Assembly: GCA_903891095.1 (NCBI GenBank)
Contig: CAITDI010000013.1
Location: 1-64,000, forward strand
Direction of reading: 5' to 3'
Source of the DNA: an uncultured bacterium
GTDB taxonomy: Bacteria; Planctomycetota; Phycisphaerae; Phycisphaerales; SM1A02
DNA: 64,000 nucleotides
Shown here: positions 54,132 to 63,268 of the stretch, in pieces
Position numbering within the stretch: position 1 is the first letter of the stretch
Layout of the letters: each line of letters opens with the position of its first letter
The notes under the pieces: model-generated
The model's input: only the letters and a program-made list of their open reading frames with translations
Database searches by the model: none
What the model was told of the DNA's origin: nothing
Translations under genes and position numbers: made by a program

Positions 54132-54240
54132 TGCTTTGGCCGCAATGCCGCGGATTGCCCGGCGATCGCGGTTGCGGGCGGCGCCGCGCCGTGGTCAGAT
54201 CGCGCGCTTCGCAAGTCCTCCGCACGGCAAGAGCACGCGC

Positions 54241-56274
54241 ATGCCTGACACCGCTGACGACAATCCCACTGCAGACATCACAAGCGCCGCGCCGGTTGGA
54301 GCCACGCCTGCGCGCGCTTCCGCGCGCACCCAGCGCGAGCACAACGACGCGAACGCGCTCGAGCAGCCCGGCGACGAGATCGGCGCGTACACGCTCATCT
54401 CGAAGATCGGCGAAGGCGGCTTCGGAACCGTGTGGCTCGCGGAGCGGCGGCAGCCGTTCGTGCAGCGCGTGGCGCTCAAGCTGATCCATCTCGGCTTCAA
54501 CTCGACGCAGGTCGTCGCGCGGTTCGAGCAGGAGCGCCAGGCGCTCGCGCTGATGAGCCATCCGAACATCGCGCAGGTGCTCGACGGCGGCGTGACGCAG
54601 TCGGGCCGGCCGTACTTCGTGATGGAGTACGTCGCGGGCGAGCCGATCACGGAGTTCTGCGACGCGCGCAAGCTGAACGTGCGCGAGCGGCTCGAGCTCT
54701 TCGCGCAGGCGTGCGACGCGATCCAGCATGCGCACGTGAAGGGCGTCGTGCACCGCGACATCAAGCCGTGGAACGTGCTCGCGTTCGAGGTCGACGGCAA
54801 GCGTTCGCTCAAGGTGATCGACTTTGGCGTGGCGAAGGCGCTGACGCAGCGGATGAGCGAGCACACGATCTTCACCGAGACGGGGCAGATGATCGGCACG
54901 CCCGAGTACATGAGCCCCGAGCAGGCCGATCCGAGCCTGAGCGACGTCGACACGCGCAGCGACGTCTACTCGCTGGGCGTGCTGCTGTACGAGCTGGTGA
55001 CGGGCGCGCTGCCGTTCGACCCGCGCGACCTGCGCTCGCGCGCGTACGGCGAGATCCGCCGAGTGATCCGCGAGGTCGATCCGCCGACGCCGAGCGCGCG
55101 CCTGTCGACCGTCGCGACCAAGGACGCCGAGGCCAAGAGCCGCATCGAGAAGGCGCGCGGCGTGGCGGTCCGCGACCTCGTGCGGCAACTCAAGTCGGAG
55201 CTCGAGTGGATCCCGCTGATGGCGATGCGCAAGGAGCCGCAGCTGCGCTACCAGAGCGCGGCGATGCTCGGCGACGACGTGCGCAACTACCTCGACGGCA
55301 AGCCGCTCGTCGCGGGGCCCGAGTCGCTCGCGTACCGCGCGCGCAAGTACGCGCGGCGAAATCCGCTGCGCGCGGCGGCGACGGTGGGGTTGCCGCTGGT
55401 GCTTGCCGTCCTGCTCGGCGTGGTCGCGGTGCCCGCGTACCGCGCGTACGCGGCGTATCAGCGGGAGCTGGCGCTGCAGCGCTACACCGTGCTCGCGGTC
55501 GAGCCCGATCCCGCGGTCGTGACCGACGCCGATGCGCGCGCGCGGATCAAGGCGACGGGCAAGCCGTGGAAGATCCGCCACGACGAGACCGGGATCGTGA
55601 TGCTGCTCTGTCCGCCCGGTGAGTACATGATGGGCATGCCCGAGACCGTCCCCGGGTGGGTTCAGAGCAACGCGCTCCATCGCTGCGCGATCCGTCGGCC
55701 GTTCTATCTTGCGGAACGCGAGGTGTCGCAGGCGGAGTGGATGCGGCTCATGCCGAGCAATCCCGCGAACTACGACGACGACTCGAAGCTGCCGGTCGAG
55801 AGCACGAGCTGGAATGATTCCCAGGACTTCTGCGCGGCGTCGGGCGGGTTCTTCCGCCTGCCCTCGGAGGAGGAATGGGAGTACGCGTGCAGGGCGGGCA
55901 CGGCGACGCAGTTCTCGTTCGGCGAGAACATCACGCCCGAGCAGGTGAACTACGACGGCGACAAGCCCTTCAACGGTGCGCCGCGCGGGCTGAAGCGCGG
56001 CCGCACAGTGCCCTGCGGCAGCCTGCCCGCGAATCCATGGGGATTTCACGAGATGCACGGCAATGTCTTCGAATGGTGCCAGGACGCGGCCAGCGATCTC
56101 GCGGGCGCGACCGAAGAGCCCGCACGGCCCACTCGTGCGAAGAGCAATCGCGCGCTGCGCGGCGGTTCATGGGACTTGTCGGCGTCGGTGTGCCGCTCGG
56201 GCGACCGCTACAGCCGCGCGGTCCGGCGGACGGACTTCAATGTCGGGCTGCGCGTGGCGCGAAGCGCGGACTGA
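54241..56274 (+). CDS. Ser/Thr protein kinase fused to a formylglycine-generating-enzyme-like domain
   Basis: A 677-aa protein. The PknB-type kinase domain (about residues 50-360) has GEGGFGTV, the ATP Lys in RVALKLIHLG (about 80), HRDIKPWNVL (about 171) and VIDFGVAK (about 193), so it should be active. One membrane helix lies at about 380-400. The outer part (about 450-677) is an FGE-sulfatase/SUMF1-like domain (REVSQAEWMRLMPSNPANYD, GNVFEWCQDAAS, ALRGGSWDL). The catalytic cysteine pair of true FGE is not evident. Kinase-FGE fusions of this kind are known in planctomycetes. Probably a transmembrane sensor kinase. Confidence 0.9.
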   Translation: MPDTADDNPTADITSAAPVGATPARASARTQREHNDANALEQPGDEIGAYTLISKIGEGGFGTVWLAERRQPFVQRVALKLIHLGFNSTQVVARFEQERQALALMSHPNIAQVLDGGVTQSGRPYFVMEYVAGEPITEFCDARKLNVRERLELFAQACDAIQHAHVKGVVHRDIKPWNVLAFEVDGKRSLKVIDFGVAKALTQRMSEHTIFTETGQMIGTPEYMSPEQADPSLSDVDTRSDVYSLGVLLYELVTGALPFDPRDLRSRAYGEIRRVIREVDPPTPSARLSTVATKDAEAKSRIEKARGVAVRDLVRQLKSELEWIPLMAMRKEPQLRYQSAAMLGDDVRNYLDGKPLVAGPESLAYRARKYARRNPLRAAATVGLPLVLAVLLGVVAVPAYRAYAAYQRELALQRYTVLAVEPDPAVVTDADARARIKATGKPWKIRHDETGIVMLLCPPGEYMMGMPETVPGWVQSNALHRCAIRRPFYLAEREVSQAEWMRLMPSNPANYDDDSKLPVESTSWNDSQDFCAASGGFFRLPSEEEWEYACRAGTATQFSFGENITPEQVNYDGDKPFNGAPRGLKRGRTVPCGSLPANPWGFHEMHGNVFEWCQDAASDLAGATEEPARPTRAKSNRALRGGSWDLSASVCRSGDRYSRAVRRTDFNVGLRVARSAD

Positions 56275-56295: not shown

Positions 56296-57930
56296 TCACA
56301 CGCCGGCCAGCACGCCGTCGCGCTCGCGCGGCAACGTCGAATCCCCGCGCCGCGCCAACGGCGCATCCAGCGGACTCTTGACGCCGCACTCCGCGCACAG
56401 CAGTCGGCTCGTGATCTCGCTCGCGAGGAAGATCACCGGCAGGCCCGAGCCCGGGTGCGTTCCGCCGCCGACGGTCCAGAGGTTGTCGAAGCCCTGCAGC
56501 CTGTGCTGCGGACGCCAGTGGAGCATCTGCGTGATGTTGTGCGCGAGGTTGAAGGTCGCGCCGTGGTTGATGTTCTGCGCGCGCCAGTCGTCGGGCGTGA
56601 ACATGATCTCGGCCTTCACGCGCTTGGCGGCGTCGCGGATGCCCATCACGCTCTCGAGGCGCGCGAGCGTCTCGGCGCGCAGCTGCGGGGCGGACTTCTT
56701 CCAGTCGATCGGCGCGCCGTCGGCGGCGGCCTGCAGGTTCGCGGTCGGCACGAGCACATAGAGCGCGCTGTCGCCCTTGGGCGCGAGCGTGGGATCGGTG
56801 CGCGACGGATTGCACACGTAGAACGACGCGTCCTCGCTCAGGCGGCCTTCGCCGATGTCGGCGAGGTTCTGGCGGTACTTGGTCGAGGTGTAGATGGTGT
56901 GGTGGGGGAGGTCGACCTCGCCCTCCATGCCGAGGTACAGCATGAACGTGCTGCACGAGTAGCGCTTGGCGTCGAGCGCCGCGTCCTTGTGCTCGCGCGT
57001 GCGGAGCGACTCGGGGATGAGGTTCTTGAGCGCCCAGGTCGCGTCGGCGTTGATGACGACGTGGTCGAACTTGCGCGTCTCGCCCTGCACGACGACGCCG
57101 CTCGCGCGCTTGCCGTCGAACACGATCCGCTGCACGGGGCTCGCGGTCTCGACGCGCGCGCCGAGGCGGGTGCACGCTTCGGCCATCGCGGCGGTGAGCG
57201 CGTTGCAGCCGCCGATCGGATGCCACACTCCGTACTCGTACTCGATGAACGGCAGGATCGAGAACAGGCTCGGGCACTCGAACGGGCTCATGCCGAGGTA
57301 CTTCGACTGGAAGCTCATCGCGAGGCGCGATTCCTCGCTCTTGAAGTACCGCGTGAGGTGCGTGTAGATCGACTCCCACGGGCGCAGCACGGGCGCGACC
57401 TTGAGGGCGTCGAGGTTCATGAGATCCGACAGCCCCCGGATGGGGCTGCGGAGGATCGGCTCCATCAGCGAGAGCTTCTTGCGGTTGTCGGCGATGAAGC
57501 GCAGGAACGCCGCGCCGTCGCCAGGCTGCACGCGCTCGAGCTGCGCGGCCATCTTGTCGAGGTCGCCGGTCGTGTCGATCTGCGTGGGCGCGGTGCCGCG
57601 GTCGTTGCCGATCAGCAGGCGGTACATCGGGTCGAGGCGCTTCATCTCGACGAAGTCGCTCGTGGCCATGCCGACGGCGCCGAAGATCTCCTCGAGCACG
57701 TACGGCATCATGAAGAACGTCGGACCGCAGTCGAACGAGTACGGACCCGCCTCGAGGCGGCGGGTGCGGCCGCCGATCACGGGCTGCGACTCGAAGATCG
57801 TGACATCGAGGCCGGCAGCTGCGAGGAGCATCGCCACCGAGAGCCCGCCAGGTCCCGCACCCACGATGGCCACGGACTTGCCGGGCTTGCTGATCGGGTG
57901 TTGTTGCGCGCGGGTCTGGTTCACATGCAT
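56296..57930 (-). CDS. Carotenoid desaturase/oxygenase (CrtI/CrtN family), copy 1
   Basis: A 544-aa FAD-dependent carotenoid amine-oxidase-fold enzyme. KSVAIVGAGPGGLSVAMLLA gives the N-terminal FAD motif. RTRRLEAGPYSFDCGPTFFM is the CrtI/CrtN substrate segment, and GTHPGSGLPVIFLASEITSR is the C-terminal FAD motif. The start at 57930 was chosen over a longer frame because CATACT lies 15-20 nt upstream and the extra residues are not conserved. It is divergent from the aldehyde dehydrogenase gene in a carotenoid locus. Desaturase (CrtN) or terminal oxygenase (CrtP) cannot be separated by eye. Confidence 0.9.
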   Translation of the reverse strand: MHVNQTRAQQHPISKPGKSVAIVGAGPGGLSVAMLLAAAGLDVTIFESQPVIGGRTRRLEAGPYSFDCGPTFFMMPYVLEEIFGAVGMATSDFVEMKRLDPMYRLLIGNDRGTAPTQIDTTGDLDKMAAQLERVQPGDGAAFLRFIADNRKKLSLMEPILRSPIRGLSDLMNLDALKVAPVLRPWESIYTHLTRYFKSEESRLAMSFQSKYLGMSPFECPSLFSILPFIEYEYGVWHPIGGCNALTAAMAEACTRLGARVETASPVQRIVFDGKRASGVVVQGETRKFDHVVINADATWALKNLIPESLRTREHKDAALDAKRYSCSTFMLYLGMEGEVDLPHHTIYTSTKYRQNLADIGEGRLSEDASFYVCNPSRTDPTLAPKGDSALYVLVPTANLQAAADGAPIDWKKSAPQLRAETLARLESVMGIRDAAKRVKAEIMFTPDDWRAQNINHGATFNLAHNITQMLHWRPQHRLQGFDNLWTVGGGTHPGSGLPVIFLASEITSRLLCAECGVKSPLDAPLARRGDSTLPRERDGVLAGV

Positions 57931-57990
57931 GCCGAGGGTTCGGGAGTATGGCGAGAAGGGATTCGAAGCGCGCGCAGGGAAGACGCGCGA

Positions 57991-58019
57991 TTGCAAAATT
58001 CGCAGAAAGCGGCGAATCT
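57991..58019 (+). promoter_or_regulatory. Promoter of the aldehyde dehydrogenase gene
   Basis: TTGCAA (57991-57996), a 17-nt spacer and GAATCT (58014-58019). The GTG at 58025 lies 5 nt later, which supports a leaderless mRNA and this start. Confidence 0.5.
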
Positions 58020-58024
58020 AGCAA

Positions 58025-59569
58025 GTGCACAATGCGAAACTCGCCATCTTGCTGCGGGTTCGCTCCATCCCTGACTCTGTTCCTGAATCCGTCCCTGACT
58101 CCGTCCCTGACTCCGTCCCTGAATCCATGCCTGCTTCGTTGCCTGCTTCAACGCCCTCCACTCTCGCGGATCGACTTGCCTGGCTCCGTCGCTTTCGCGA
58201 TGCGGTCAAGGTGCGTCATGTCGAGCTGTGCGCGTTGGCGAGCACCGAGGTCGGCAAGACCGCGTTCGAGGCGATGACGGGCGACATCCTGCCGCTGCTC
58301 TCGTCGTGCAACTGGCATCTCAAGCGCGCCAAGTCGCTGCTGGCGCCGCATGTCGTGCGTGGCGGCGGCTTGCTCGGGCTCGGGCATCGCGTCGAGCGTC
58401 ATCGGATGCCGGCGGGGCGGGTGCTGATCATCGCGACGTGGAACTACCCCGTGCAGCTGCTCGGCATCCAGCTGGTGCAGGCGGTGGTCGCGGGCAATTC
58501 GGTCGTGGTCAAGCCGTCGGAGCGGGCGCCGCGGACGCAGGCCTTGCTGATGGAACTCGCGATCGAGGCGGCCGAGGCTACGCCGTCGCTCCGCGGCGCG
58601 ATCGAGGTGCGCAGCGCGTCGCGCGAGGAAGGTCGGCGCGTGCTCGCCGACGAGCAGTTCGACCATGTCGTGTTCACGGGCTCGACCAAGGTCGGGCGCG
58701 CGATCGCGGAGGTGTGCGCGCCGCGCTTGATCCCGACATCGCTGGAGTTGTCGGGCTCGGACAGCGCGATCGTGCTCGCCGACGCCGATGCGCGCGCTGC
58801 GGCGCGCGCGGTGTTCATGGGATTCACCGCGAACGCGGGGCAGACCTGCATGGCGCCGCGCCGTGCGCTCGTCGCGCGCGAGGTGCACGCGGCGTTTACC
58901 GATGAACTCGCGAAGCTCGTCGCGGGCGCGCCCAAGACCAATCTCGCCGACGCGCAGGCCGCGTCGCAGGCGCATGCGACGGCGACGGCGGCGATTCGCG
59001 CGGGCGGACGCTCGATCGCAGGTGCGGTCGAGCCGTGCGCGGGCCGCGCGATGCGGCCGATCGCGGTGCTCGATTGCCCCGTCGACAGCGAGCTCTTTCT
59101 CGGCAAGCACTTTGGCCCCGCGATCGCGGTGCGCGCGTTCGACACGATCGACGAGGCGTTCGCGATGCACGCGCGCTCGGGGCAGTACCTCGCGACGAGC
59201 ATCTGGACCAAGCGTCCCAAGCACGAGCTCGCCGAGCGCGCCCGCGCGTGCGGATCGGGCCTCGTGCACTTCAACTCGGTGCTGCTGCCGTCGGCGCATC
59301 CCGGCATCTCGATCAGCGGCCACGGCCCGAGCGGCTGGGGCACGTCGCGCGGCGAATCGGGGCTGTTCGCGCTCACGCGCGAGGTCTTCGTGACGCAGAC
59401 CGACGGCCTCGTGCAAGTCCCGGTCGGCGAGCCCTCGGAGAAGATCCAGCAGATGATCTCGAACTTCATCATGTGGCCGCTGCGCAGCGCGGCGCCGCGT
59501 GAGCAGAAGCAGGCACAGCAAACACGTCCAAGCGGCAAGTCCCAACGCACGGAAATCAAAGCATCATGA
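58025..59569 (+). CDS. Carotenoid-locus aldehyde dehydrogenase
   Basis: A 514-aa aldehyde dehydrogenase. TWNYPVQLLG, FTGSTKVGRAIAE, the general-base Glu in SLELSGSDSAI, and the catalytic Cys in NAGQTCMAPRR are in order. In staphyloxanthin synthesis the AldH enzyme oxidises 4,4'-diaponeurosporenal to the acid, and the neighbours fit that role. Start GTG at 58025 is supported by a promoter just upstream; the N-terminal 50 residues contain in-frame 12-bp repeats (PDSVPESV). ATG at 58127 is an alternative. Stop overlaps the next start (ATGA). Confidence 0.85.
   Translation: MHNAKLAILLRVRSIPDSVPESVPDSVPDSVPESMPASLPASTPSTLADRLAWLRRFRDAVKVRHVELCALASTEVGKTAFEAMTGDILPLLSSCNWHLKRAKSLLAPHVVRGGGLLGLGHRVERHRMPAGRVLIIATWNYPVQLLGIQLVQAVVAGNSVVVKPSERAPRTQALLMELAIEAAEATPSLRGAIEVRSASREEGRRVLADEQFDHVVFTGSTKVGRAIAEVCAPRLIPTSLELSGSDSAIVLADADARAAARAVFMGFTANAGQTCMAPRRALVAREVHAAFTDELAKLVAGAPKTNLADAQAASQAHATATAAIRAGGRSIAGAVEPCAGRAMRPIAVLDCPVDSELFLGKHFGPAIAVRAFDTIDEAFAMHARSGQYLATSIWTKRPKHELAERARACGSGLVHFNSVLLPSAHPGISISGHGPSGWGTSRGESGLFALTREVFVTQTDGLVQVPVGEPSEKIQQMISNFIMWPLRSAAPREQKQAQQTRPSGKSQRTEIKAS
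58068..58151 (+). repeat. 12-bp tandem repeat (seven copies) in the aldehyde dehydrogenase N-terminus
   Basis: Seven copies of TCCCTGACTCCG-type units start at 58068, 58080, 58092, 58104, 58116, 58128 and 58140. Because the unit is 12 bp they keep frame and encode a Pro-Asp-Ser-Val-like repeat. Confidence 0.9.
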
Positions 59570-61269
59570 ATCGGACCACCAAGCGCACCACAGTCGTGAT
59601 CGGCGGAGGTCTCGCGGGCCTCGCGGCGGCAACCGAGCTCACCACGCAGTTCAAGCAGCAGCACGGCGAGGGCGACCGCGAGGTCGTGATCGTCGAGAAG
59701 AACCAGCACCTCGGCGGCAAGATGAACGTGCTCTCCGAGAAGGGCTACCACTTCGACATGGGGCCCACGATCATCACGATGCCCGAGGTCGTGCGCGGGA
59801 TCATCCGCCGCAGCGGCCGCCGCGTCGAGGACTACCTCGAGCTCGTGCGGCTCGATCCGCAGTGGCGCTGCTTCTACGAGGACGGCACGGTGATCGATCT
59901 CCGCGACAATCCGCAGGATTTCGCGGCGGACCTCGACCGGCAGTTCCCCGCGCACAAGCCGGGGCGAGGCTACATGGAGTTCCTCGAGTACGCGCGCCGC
60001 ATGTACCGGCTGAGCGAGAAGGTCTTCTTCTACAAGGATCTCGGCGGGATCGGCGACATGATGCGCAAGCCGCCGACCGACGCGGCGCTGCTCGGCGACG
60101 TGCTCCGCATGCGCATGCACTCGACGGTCGCGAAGACCTCGCACCGCACGGTCACCGAGCCGCATCTCTCGCAGATGACCGAGCACTTCATGCAGTACAT
60201 CGGGTCGAGCCCGTTCCTCGCGCCGGCGATCCTCTCGCTGATCGCGAGCGCGCAGGGCGACTACGGCTGCTGGTACGCGATGGGCGGCACGCGCATGGTC
60301 GCGCGCGCGCTGGAGCGCGTGTTCACCGAGCAGGGCGGCAAGGTCGAGCGCGGCGTGGGCGCCAAGCGCATCATCGTCGAGGGCGGCCGTGTGACGGGCG
60401 TCGAGCTTGCGGACGGCCGCACGATCGCCTGCGACACCGTGATCTCGAACTGCGACGTGCAGCGCACCTACACCGATCTCGTCGGCACGCCCGAGGCGAA
60501 GGCCGCGCAGCGCAAGGTTGCGTCGAAGTACGAGCCCGCGTGCTCGGGCGTCGTTCTCTATCTCGGCCTCGATCGCCGCTACGAGCAGCTGCGCCACAAC
60601 ACGTTCATCTTCTCGCGCGACGGGAAGCAGGAGTTCGACGACATCTACCGCCAGGGCGAGCCCGCGCGCGATCCCACGCTGTACCTGTGCGTGCCGAGCG
60701 CGAGCGATCCCGCGCAGGCGCCCGAGGGCGGCGAGTCGCTGTACATCCTCGTGCACACGCCGTATCGCCGCGACCGCCACGACTGGGATGCGCCCGGCGG
60801 ACTGTTCGACCAGTACCGCCGCGTGATCCTCGACAAGCTCAAGCGGTTCGGCATGGAGGACATCGAGCAGCACATCGTGGTCGAGCGCAGGCTCACGCCT
60901 GCGTCGATCGACCGCATGTACAACGCGACGGGCGGCGCGATCTACGGCCTCGCGTCGCACGGGCGGCTGCACGGCGGATTCAAGCCGCGCAACACGAGCG
61001 CGGTCGCGAAGGGCCTCTATCTCGCGGGCGGCAGCGTGAATCCCGGCCCAGGCACGCCGATGGTGATGATGTCGGGCGTGACCGCCGCGTGGAGCGCGTG
61101 CGAGGGACTCGGCATCGAGCCGTCGCGCGGCGAGACCAGCGTGGGCGCTGGATCCAGCGTCGGCAAGGACAAGGTGCTGTCGTCGCTCCTGCAGGGCGCG
61201 TACACGGGCAACCCGCAGGTTCCGAGCGAAAGGCAGGGTTCGTGGGCCAAGCCCGCGATGTCGCGCTGA
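59566..61269 (+). CDS. Carotenoid desaturase/oxygenase (CrtI/CrtN family), copy 2
   Basis: A 567-aa FAD enzyme. TVVIGGGLAGLAAATELTTQ is the FAD motif. GGKMNVLSEKGYHFDMGPTI is the substrate segment, and SVNPGPGTPMVMMSGVTAAW is the C-terminal FAD motif. It is paralogous to copy 1 but distinct. The ATG overlaps the dehydrogenase stop by 4 nt, and the acyltransferase starts inside its 3' end. One of the two copies is likely the desaturase and the other the terminal oxygenase that makes the aldehyde substrate. Confidence 0.92.
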   Translation: MNRTTKRTTVVIGGGLAGLAAATELTTQFKQQHGEGDREVVIVEKNQHLGGKMNVLSEKGYHFDMGPTIITMPEVVRGIIRRSGRRVEDYLELVRLDPQWRCFYEDGTVIDLRDNPQDFAADLDRQFPAHKPGRGYMEFLEYARRMYRLSEKVFFYKDLGGIGDMMRKPPTDAALLGDVLRMRMHSTVAKTSHRTVTEPHLSQMTEHFMQYIGSSPFLAPAILSLIASAQGDYGCWYAMGGTRMVARALERVFTEQGGKVERGVGAKRIIVEGGRVTGVELADGRTIACDTVISNCDVQRTYTDLVGTPEAKAAQRKVASKYEPACSGVVLYLGLDRRYEQLRHNTFIFSRDGKQEFDDIYRQGEPARDPTLYLCVPSASDPAQAPEGGESLYILVHTPYRRDRHDWDAPGGLFDQYRRVILDKLKRFGMEDIEQHIVVERRLTPASIDRMYNATGGAIYGLASHGRLHGGFKPRNTSAVAKGLYLAGGSVNPGPGTPMVMMSGVTAAWSACEGLGIEPSRGETSVGAGSSVGKDKVLSSLLQGAYTGNPQVPSERQGSWAKPAMSR

Positions 61270-62057
61270 TCCCGGCGACGCCGTCGCCGCGCGTGCGCGC
61301 GGTGTTCACGGCAATGGTCGCGTCGATGACGCGGCGGCGGTTCCACGCCGTGCGCGTCGCGCGCGAATCGCGCGAAGTCCTGCGCGAGCTCGACGGCGGC
61401 GCGCGGCCCGCGCTCGTCGTGATGAACCACTCGTCGTGGTGGGATCCGATCGTGGCGCTGCTGTTGTGGCGCGAGTTCTTCGCGTCGCGCGCGCCGTTCG
61501 GACCGATCGACCGCGACGAGCTGATGCGCTTTCGGATCTTTCGCAAGGTGGGATTGTTCGGCGTCGATCCCGACGATCCCGCGACGCTCGATGCCATGCG
61601 CGCGTATCTCGAGCGCGAATCGCAGGCGAATCCGCGCATCGCGCTCGTCGTGACGCCGCAAGGCAAGTTCGCCGACGTGCGCAGCGAGATCGTGCCGCGG
61701 CCTGGCGCTGCGGCGGTGGCGGCTTCGCTCGCGCCCGATCGCGCGGTGTCGGTCGCGGTCGAGTACGCGTTCTGGGTCGACCAGAAGCCGGAGATCTTCG
61801 TGCGCGCCGAGCGCATCGCGTGCGACGCGGGCGGCACGCTTGCGTGGCAGCGGCGGATCACCGAGTCGATGCGGGCGAACCAGGCCAGGCTCGCGGAAAT
61901 CGTGCGCGCGCGCGACGCATCGGCGTTCGAGCCGCTCGCGGCGGCGTTTGCGCCGAAGGTCTCGGGCACGAATCCCGTGTACGACCTCTGGCTGCGCGCG
62001 ACCGGGCGCGGCAACGCCGCTCTCGGCGACGCGCGCGAATCGCGAGGATCACGATGA
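61242..62057 (+). CDS. PlsC-like acyltransferase of the carotenoid locus
   Basis: A 271-aa LPLAT-fold acyltransferase. NHSSWWDPIVALLLWREFFA carries the HX4D catalytic motif near residue 67, and VTPQGKFADVRSEIVPRPGA the second motif (EGT-like, here QGK). The start GTG at 61242 was chosen because AGGCAGGG lies 3 nt upstream; it overlaps the previous gene by 28 nt. ATG at 61314 is an alternative. By position it could esterify a carotenoid glycoside, as CrtO does in staphyloxanthin synthesis, although CrtO itself is smaller. Confidence 0.8.
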   Translation: MGQARDVALIPATPSPRVRAVFTAMVASMTRRRFHAVRVARESREVLRELDGGARPALVVMNHSSWWDPIVALLLWREFFASRAPFGPIDRDELMRFRIFRKVGLFGVDPDDPATLDAMRAYLERESQANPRIALVVTPQGKFADVRSEIVPRPGAAAVAASLAPDRAVSVAVEYAFWVDQKPEIFVRAERIACDAGGTLAWQRRITESMRANQARLAEIVRARDASAFEPLAAAFAPKVSGTNPVYDLWLRATGRGNAALGDARESRGSR

Positions 62058-63268
62058 ACTTGATGAACACGGGCGATCTCGCGCTCGCCCTCCAGACTCC
62101 GTGGCTCATGTACGCGTCGCTCGCGGCCGCCGCGCAGCCGCTCGCGCTGTCGATCGTGAACATGCGCCGCTACCGGCCCGCGCCCGCGCTCGCGGAGATC
62201 GCGGGTGCAACGCGCGGCGCGCGCGTCGCAGTCTGCGTGCCCGCGCGCAACGAGTGCGAGAACATCGAGGCGTGCGTGCGCTCGATCCTCGCGTCGACCG
62301 ACGTCGACGTGCGCGCCTATGTCTACGACGACGAGTCGACCGATGGCACGGGCGAGATCGTCGCGCGGCTTGCGGCGGAGGATCCGCGCGTGGTGATCGT
62401 TCCGCGTCGCGCGCTGCCCGCGGGATGGAACGGCAAGCAGCACGCGTGCTTCCGCATGGCCGAGCACGGGCTTGCGAACGATCCGAAGCTCGACTGGTTC
62501 CTGTTTACCGACGCCGATGTGCGCGTCGAGCCCGATGCCGTCGCGCGCGCGCTGGGTTTCGCGCTGCGTTCGGGCAGCGCGCTTGTCTCGACGGTGCCGT
62601 GCGAGCTCACCGGCTCGATCGGCGAGATGACGCTCGTGCCGCTCATCCACTTCGTGCTCATGAGCTACCTGCCGTTCGGCCGCATGCGCGCGACGCTCGA
62701 TCCCGCGGCGAGCGCGGCGTGCGGGCAGTTCATCCTGGTGTCGCGCGCGGCGTATCGCGCGAGCGGCGGCGCGGACGGCTACGGCCACGCGGGTTTCAAG
62801 GCGTCGATGCACGATGGCGTCAAGTTTCCGCGCGCCGTGCGCAAGGCGGGGCTGCGCACCGATCTCTACGACGGCACCGAGAGTGTCTCGTGCCGCATGT
62901 ACCGCGGATTCGCGCAGACTTGGCGCGGTTTCGCGAAGAACGCGTACGAGGGGCTCGGCAGCTTCGCGCTGCTCGCGTTCATCACCGTCTACCACGCGCT
63001 TGGTCAGCTGTTGCCGTGGATCGTGGTCGCGCTCGCCGCCGCGACGGGCGCATGGGAGCGGGGCGCGTGGATCGCATCGGCCGCGATTGCCTGCGCGCTC
63101 GTCCAGCGCACGCTGCTTGCGGCGCGTTTCAAGCAGTCTTTCCTGAATGTGCCGCTGCATCCGATCTCAATTGTGATGCTCTCGGCCGTGCAGTGGCGCA
63201 GCCTCTGGCTCGACAAGACCGGCCGCCGCGGATGGAAGGGCAGAATCGCGGGAACTCGTCCCGCGTAG
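62054..63268 (+). CDS. GT2 glycosyltransferase of the carotenoid locus (CrtQ-like)
   Basis: A 404-aa glycosyltransferase family 2 membrane enzyme. An N-terminal helix (about 15-40) is followed by VAVCVPARNECENIEACVRS, YDDESTDGTGEIV, AGWNGKQHACF and the DxD motif in WFLFTDADVRVE (about residues 145-156). The QXXRW-like region has RGFAQTWRGFAKNAYEG. Hydrophobic helices close the protein (about 290-370). This order is that of 4,4'-diaponeurosporenoate glycosyltransferase (CrtQ). The ATG overlaps the acyltransferase stop (ATGA). Confidence 0.88.
   Translation: MNLMNTGDLALALQTPWLMYASLAAAAQPLALSIVNMRRYRPAPALAEIAGATRGARVAVCVPARNECENIEACVRSILASTDVDVRAYVYDDESTDGTGEIVARLAAEDPRVVIVPRRALPAGWNGKQHACFRMAEHGLANDPKLDWFLFTDADVRVEPDAVARALGFALRSGSALVSTVPCELTGSIGEMTLVPLIHFVLMSYLPFGRMRATLDPAASAACGQFILVSRAAYRASGGADGYGHAGFKASMHDGVKFPRAVRKAGLRTDLYDGTESVSCRMYRGFAQTWRGFAKNAYEGLGSFALLAFITVYHALGQLLPWIVVALAAATGAWERGAWIASAAIACALVQRTLLAARFKQSFLNVPLHPISIVMLSAVQWRSLWLDKTGRRGWKGRIAGTRPA

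Follow-up and report, generated by a model that had tools for sequence, protein, structure and literature searches.

Introduction

A squalene route to C30 carotenoids has already been worked out in other bacteria, and the five-gene cluster described here is a further example of it. The cluster lies in the window, a stretch of 64,000 nucleotides (positions 1 to 64,000 of contig CAITDI010000013.1, assembly GCA_903891095.1) from an uncultured planctomycete of the order Phycisphaerales, class Phycisphaerae. Azospirillum brasilense Sp7 loses its pigment when either hpnCDE or crtNPOQ is deleted, and squalene builds up in the crtNPOQ mutant (passages of PMC13274349). In Methylobacterium extorquens AM1, the glycosyltransferase and acyltransferase encoded beside crtP were confirmed by deletion and complementation, and the cassette takes part in making a glucosylated, acylated diapolycopenedioic acid (passages of PMC10448405). 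An aldehyde dehydrogenase for the C30 aldehyde had been identified earlier in Methylomonas sp. 16a, as cited in a passage of PMC10745290. Within the planctomycetes, Planctopirus limnophila and Stieleria maiorica turn white when hpnD is deleted (passage of PMC11958385), and all compounds reported from the group come from the class Planctomycetia according to a passage of a 2025 review (PMC12078418). A literature search found no characterised carotenoid from Phycisphaerae, with the proviso that members of Phycisphaerales may figure in Santana-Molina et al. 2022, which is represented here by the papers citing it; the search also found nothing on Phycisphaerae with squalene and hpnC.

Very probably, the window carries the late genes of a squalene-route C30 carotenoid pathway that is split over two loci, the window itself and contig C96 of the same genome. 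A pigment route that was recently proved thereby reaches Phycisphaerae, a class separate from Planctomycetia. Three sets of direct observations carry this reading: the genes, their relatedness, and their co-occurrence with HpnCDE.

The carotenoid cluster and its conservation

The five genes span positions 56296-63268. The crtN-like gene is on the minus strand, divergent from an overlapping operon of four genes on the plus strand:

56296..57930, minus strand: CrtN-like C30 carotenoid desaturase (TIGR02734, 444 bits; tree; identities)
58025..59569, plus strand: aldehyde dehydrogenase (ALDH; PF00171 Aldedh, 237 bits; putative AldH role)
59566..61269, plus strand: CrtP-like C30 carotenoid terminal-methyl oxidase (TIGR02734, 376 bits; tree; identities)
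61242..62057, plus strand: PlsC-like acyltransferase (AT; PF01553 Acyltransferase, 26.9 bits; probable start GTG 61242)
62054..63268, plus strand: CrtQ-like family 2 glycosyltransferase (GT; PF00535 Glycos_transf_2, 64.6 bits; identities)

Both desaturases pass the crtI_fam model TIGR02734, which has a cut-off of 238 bits. The AT match is barely above its cut-off of 23 and is the weakest family support of the five. The GT scored under the cut-off of both the HpnB and the CruG model.

Searches with CrtP found 59 named loci, of which 58 hold a CrtP relative by score; L121 was left out of the counts. Neighbours were counted within 8.5 kb of CrtP, and the counts are lower bounds since several contigs end inside the cluster. 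An ALDH is present in at least 52 of the 58 loci, an AT in 53, a GT in 52, and CrtN in 49. All five genes occur together in 40 loci, and 35 of these have the exact order and strands of the window. In another locus, L084, the one difference from that order is that the listed AT and GT have changed places, in over-long frames. Because the neighbours recur in most of the 58 loci, the five-gene grouping is not due to chance. In four alphaproteobacterial loci (L110, L111, L113, L114, from the genera Limimaricola, Tropicimonas, Palleronia and Tranquillimonas), hpnE-hpnD-hpnC is the immediate neighbour of crtN-crtP-AT-GT, with HpnE matches that are weak (31 bits in L110, 35 bits in L113). The squalene genes are therefore physically tied to the cassette in these loci. 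The cassette can also be split, as in genomes G019 and G024, where crtN and ALDH are at one place and crtP-AT-GT at another.

Two further observations concern the CrtP relatives. A second CrtP paralogue of genome G028 (L060:8848-10551) is encoded outside the carotenoid cluster, and in the surrounding 18 kb no further cassette gene was found. Clusters with CrtP at 80-85% identity occur in L064, L067 and L079, public records named Candidatus Kuenenia or Limnohabitans; these names look wrong.

Relationships of the two desaturases

The desaturase tree contains 55 rows picked from among the loci, each with at least 350 residues aligned to the query. The window CrtP falls in a clade of 23 rows with A. 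brasilense CrtP (support 98/94), joined next by Staphylococcus CrtP (98/93). The window CrtN falls in a clade of 21 rows with A. brasilense CrtN (100/99). The position of Staphylococcus CrtN is less sure (94/83, under the starred level); residue composition is unusual in the Staphylococcus rows, and their branches are long. A separate C40 CrtI clade (100/100) holds the CrtI of Pantoea, Paracoccus, Thermus and Roseobacter as well as one protein of genome G024. Thus, by their placement in the tree, both window desaturases group with C30 enzymes, apart from C40 CrtI and CrtD.

This placement bears on the possibility that the window is a C40 locus, in which the two desaturases would act on phytoene or a lycopene derivative in the manner of CrtI and CrtD. 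The CrtP-like protein does score 304.5 bits against the CrtD model, though the cut-off is 580, and a spirochaete CrtI-like protein encoded beside a CrtB-like gene (L121) joins the CrtN side with weak support (92/67), its branch being very long (2.99). Against this, C40 CrtI forms a clade of its own, the very long branch of Roseobacter CrtD attaches outside the CrtP clade, and the genome gave no match to a phytoene synthase. With neither CrtB nor a C40 CrtI found, and given the tree, the C40 reading was rejected as extremely unlikely.

Genome G024 also has a separate pair of CrtI-like and CrtB-like genes (L051:8004-10573) in addition to HpnCDE and C30 genes. On these gene contents, G024 may make both C30 and C40 carotenoids.

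An earlier note on this DNA had proposed the C30 assignment and had named in advance a grouping of both desaturases with C40 enzymes as the outcome that speaks against it. The tree has no such grouping, and the assignment is borne out: CrtP is with C30 CrtP and CrtN with the C30 CrtN of Azospirillum, both apart from CrtI. The same note had listed the five genes, four of them in an overlapping rightward operon. All are present by reading frames and family matches, and the roles proposed there (CrtN, CrtP, AldH, CrtQ-like, acyltransferase) agree, as far as sequence allows, with the family matches and identities.

Precursor supply

The genome is 3.6 Mb in 131 contigs and 98.6% complete. It has exactly two genes of the squalene/phytoene-synthase family (SQS_PSY, PF00494, E up to 0.001), which are neighbours on contig C96, with hpnE as the third gene beside them. 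The two are HpnC (263.6 bits, NCBIfam cut-off 250.45) and HpnD, whose best model is HpnD with 223.4 bits; HpnE scores 358.3 bits (cut-off 283.05). No CrtM or CrtB match was found in the genome. Because the only genes of this family are HpnC and HpnD beside HpnE, the substrate of the cluster is most likely squalene rather than diapophytoene.

A strict staphyloxanthin-type pathway, in which a CrtM-like enzyme makes diapophytoene and CrtN desaturates it, is very improbable. The window CrtN and CrtP are 29% and 36% identical to the Staphylococcus enzymes, which fits such a pathway. However, CrtM has no match here, and the AT gave no match to CrtO of S. xylosus or S. pasteuri in a phmmer search against 13 reference sequences at E up to 10. 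On these two grounds the strict staphyloxanthin reading was rejected.

The earlier note had found no crtM or hpnCDE beside the cluster and placed the precursor step elsewhere in the genome. The genome search that it proposed located hpnC-hpnD-hpnE on C96 and gave no match for crtM, in agreement with that expectation. Two other parts of it did not hold: a start from diapophytoene as in S. aureus, and the staphyloxanthin-type label in its strict sense.

Co-occurrence with HpnCDE and hopene cyclase

Since the genome of the window also has a squalene-hopene cyclase (contig C127), HpnCDE alone is no proof of carotenoid use here. HpnCDE might serve hopanoids only, leaving the cassette without a precursor supply of its own. 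The cyclase itself favours this possibility.

Co-occurrence was counted among 151 genomes of the order, each at least 90% complete. The presence limits (E) were 1e-80 for CrtP, 1e-60 for HpnE, 1e-50 for the cyclase and 1e-15 for SQS_PSY. The figures are raw genome counts that ignore kinship, and weak PF13243 matches (e.g. in G019, G024 and G028) were scored as cyclase absent. Some absences may be gaps: G073 and G122 were counted negative though two positive genomes belong to the same genus. Of the 151 genomes, 61 have CrtP, 105 HpnE (101 of them above the curated cut-off), 85 the hopene cyclase and 108 SQS_PSY.

HpnE is present in 58 of 61 CrtP-positive genomes compared with 47 of 90 CrtP-negative ones. 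The difference is sharper in the 66 genomes that lack a strong cyclase match, where HpnE occurs in 20/22 CrtP-positive and 4/44 CrtP-negative genomes; counting only HpnE above the curated cut-off gives 19/22 and 1/44. The 20 genomes with CrtP and HpnE and no strong cyclase match span 12 genera. In such relatives the squalene genes may serve the pigment only.

Another 43 of the 151 genomes have HpnE and the cyclase and no CrtP, as a purely hopanoid use of HpnCDE would predict. However, squalene would be open to both uses, and cyclase-negative relatives retain HpnE almost only with CrtP. A cassette cut off from HpnCDE is thus a highly improbable explanation, and the split squalene-route pathway is preferred.

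A squalene-synthase-type gene next to crtN

Three CrtP-positive genomes, G008, G028 and G077, are without HpnE. The two HpnE-negative exceptions among the 22 CrtP-positive, cyclase-negative genomes carry a squalene-synthase-type gene beside crtN. The gene directly follows crtN in G028, a one-contig genome (L049:12938-13885), and in G077 (L132:12895-13356), where it is seen as a fragment only because the contig ends there. G038 has the same arrangement (L133:4866-5828) together with an HpnE match under the cut-off. For the G028 protein the best model is squalene synthase (96 bits, under the cut-off of 286.75), and it matches solved squalene synthases ahead of dehydrosqualene synthases. In the three genomes, none of which has a full hpnCDE, the gene beside crtN is a possible one-gene replacement for the three-gene front end of the squalene route. 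A comparable gene content is described for Methylomonas, with crtN genes and a single squalene/phytoene-synthase gene and no hpnCDE, in a passage of PMC10745290.

A broader proposal for Phycisphaerales, which we favour by a small degree, is that the squalene supply of a conserved cassette is interchangeable and that the ALDH at the operon head is the acid-forming enzyme. The supply would be HpnCDE in most genomes, dedicated to pigment where the cyclase is gone, and in a few a one-gene synthase after crtN.

Proposed pathway

By analogy with relatives, each reaction and the end product can be predicted as follows. HpnC, HpnD and HpnE, encoded on C96, would convert farnesyl diphosphate to squalene. 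CrtN, from the minus strand of the window, would desaturate squalene, and CrtP would oxidise the end methyl groups to aldehydes. The ALDH would turn the aldehyde into a carboxylic acid, the GT would attach a sugar as an ester, and the PlsC-like AT would add a fatty acid to the sugar. The end product would be a C30 carotenoic acid that is both glycosylated and acylated, as in M. extorquens.

Several observations weigh against this pathway. The HpnD of C96 is under its NCBIfam cut-off of 278.6, and the cyclase on C127 offers a second use for squalene. The ALDH is 34% identical to that of A. brasilense; two candidate aldehyde dehydrogenases were deleted in M. extorquens and neither was needed (passage of PMC10448405); and six of the 58 loci have no ALDH within 8.5 kb of CrtP. 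Genomes G051 and G129 are without another strong cassette match near CrtP. Four cyclase-negative genomes have an HpnE match and no CrtP. In three of these, all of one genus (G043, G074, G091), HpnE is just under the cut-off and there is no SQS_PSY match; the fourth, G047, which has both HpnE and SQS_PSY, is a true exception. Finally, G008, of the same genus as the window organism, has the cassette and a hopene cyclase with no detectable HpnCDE and no SQS_PSY match. This lack is likely a gap, because its hopene cyclase needs squalene.

Comparisons that use the cyclase-negative relatives and the genomes with an apparently swapped front end can put the choice between squalene and diapophytoene to the test. 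In Methylobacterium no such dehydrogenase could be identified, and the conserved ALDH is a candidate for this kind of enzyme. Two side points of some value are the position of the ALDH at the operon head and what seems to be an exchange of the front end in G028, G077 and G038.

Gene boundaries, conserved residues and surroundings

The longest frame of the crtN-like gene, 56296-57996, begins with a TTG at 57996, and the in-frame ATG at 57930 is the likelier start. Alignments of the ALDH with most relatives start near residue 45, so that its true start may be the ATG at 58127. ALDH and CrtP overlap by 4 bases (59566-59569), as do AT and GT (62054-62057). The AT frame ends at 62057 and GTG 61242, read from the sequence, is its likely start; with this start it overlaps crtP by 28 bases.

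A 12-base tandem repeat of about 5.3 copies (58063-58126) lies at the beginning of the ALDH frame; the conserved ALDH of most relatives begins downstream of it. A regulatory role for the repeat was considered and dropped. TRF, run on the window and on the crtN-ALDH region in as many as ten close loci (L063, L065-L070, L072, L079, L098), found the array in the window only, and found other short repeats in L063, L065, L066 and L070. A promoter and terminator scan of the crtN-ALDH region (57800-58200) found nothing.

Cys275 and Glu241 of the ALDH (59 rows), His65 and Asp70 of the AT (63 rows; residues counted from base 61236), and Asp92, Asp93, Asp153 and Asp155 of the GT (64 rows) are at least 95% conserved, in row sets that are redundant since some genomes and named records are the same contig. 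We take these to be the catalytic residues, with His65 and Asp70 presumably forming the HX4D motif. A PDB search with the ALDH (E up to 1e-40) gave no match, i.e. no close relative with a solved structure. Upstream of the cluster, 54136-56274 reads in translation like a serine/threonine kinase that carries a formylglycine-generating-enzyme-like domain fused at its C-terminus.

Comparison with known systems

The genome holds hpnCDE with no match to crtM or crtB, a CrtN and a CrtP of C30 clades, and a crtP-AT-GT cassette, the features of the squalene-route C30 pathway. Staphylococcus crtOPQMN resembles the window in that its CrtN, CrtP and CrtQ are related to the window proteins (CrtQ 26% and CrtN 29% identity, both to S. 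xylosus), and the order of its late reactions is the same. It differs in its CrtM front end, in a CrtO of another acyltransferase family, and in having no ALDH listed in the stretch compared. By similarity, the window AT belongs to a family other than that of CrtO and would do an analogous job.

Planctopirus limnophila is of the same phylum and obtains its squalene precursor through HpnCDE, but it belongs to another class (Santana-Molina et al. 2022, as relayed by citing papers). In M. extorquens AM1, compared by description, crtP, the acyltransferase and the glycosyltransferase are together (META1p3665-3664-3663) and hpnCDE is elsewhere; in contrast to the window, crtN (META1p3670) is numbered five genes off and, by the account in passages of PMC10448405, an aldehyde dehydrogenase could not be identified.

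A. brasilense has the same gene set (hpnCDE, crtNPOQ and aldH), with hpnCDE at a separate locus (passages of PMC13274349). The window proteins are 46% (CrtN), 51% (CrtP), 45% (GT), 34% (AT) and 34% (ALDH) identical to products of plasmid genes of strain MTCC4038, which, judged by gene order and names, probably correspond to crtNPOQ of Sp7. In A. brasilense crtN heads the operon and the ALDH gene is divergent, whereas in the window crtN is divergent and ALDH heads the operon, an order that is common to the relatives of the window and not to A. brasilense. Of the characterised cassettes, it is those of Azospirillum and Methylobacterium that come closest to the window, rather than that of Staphylococcus.

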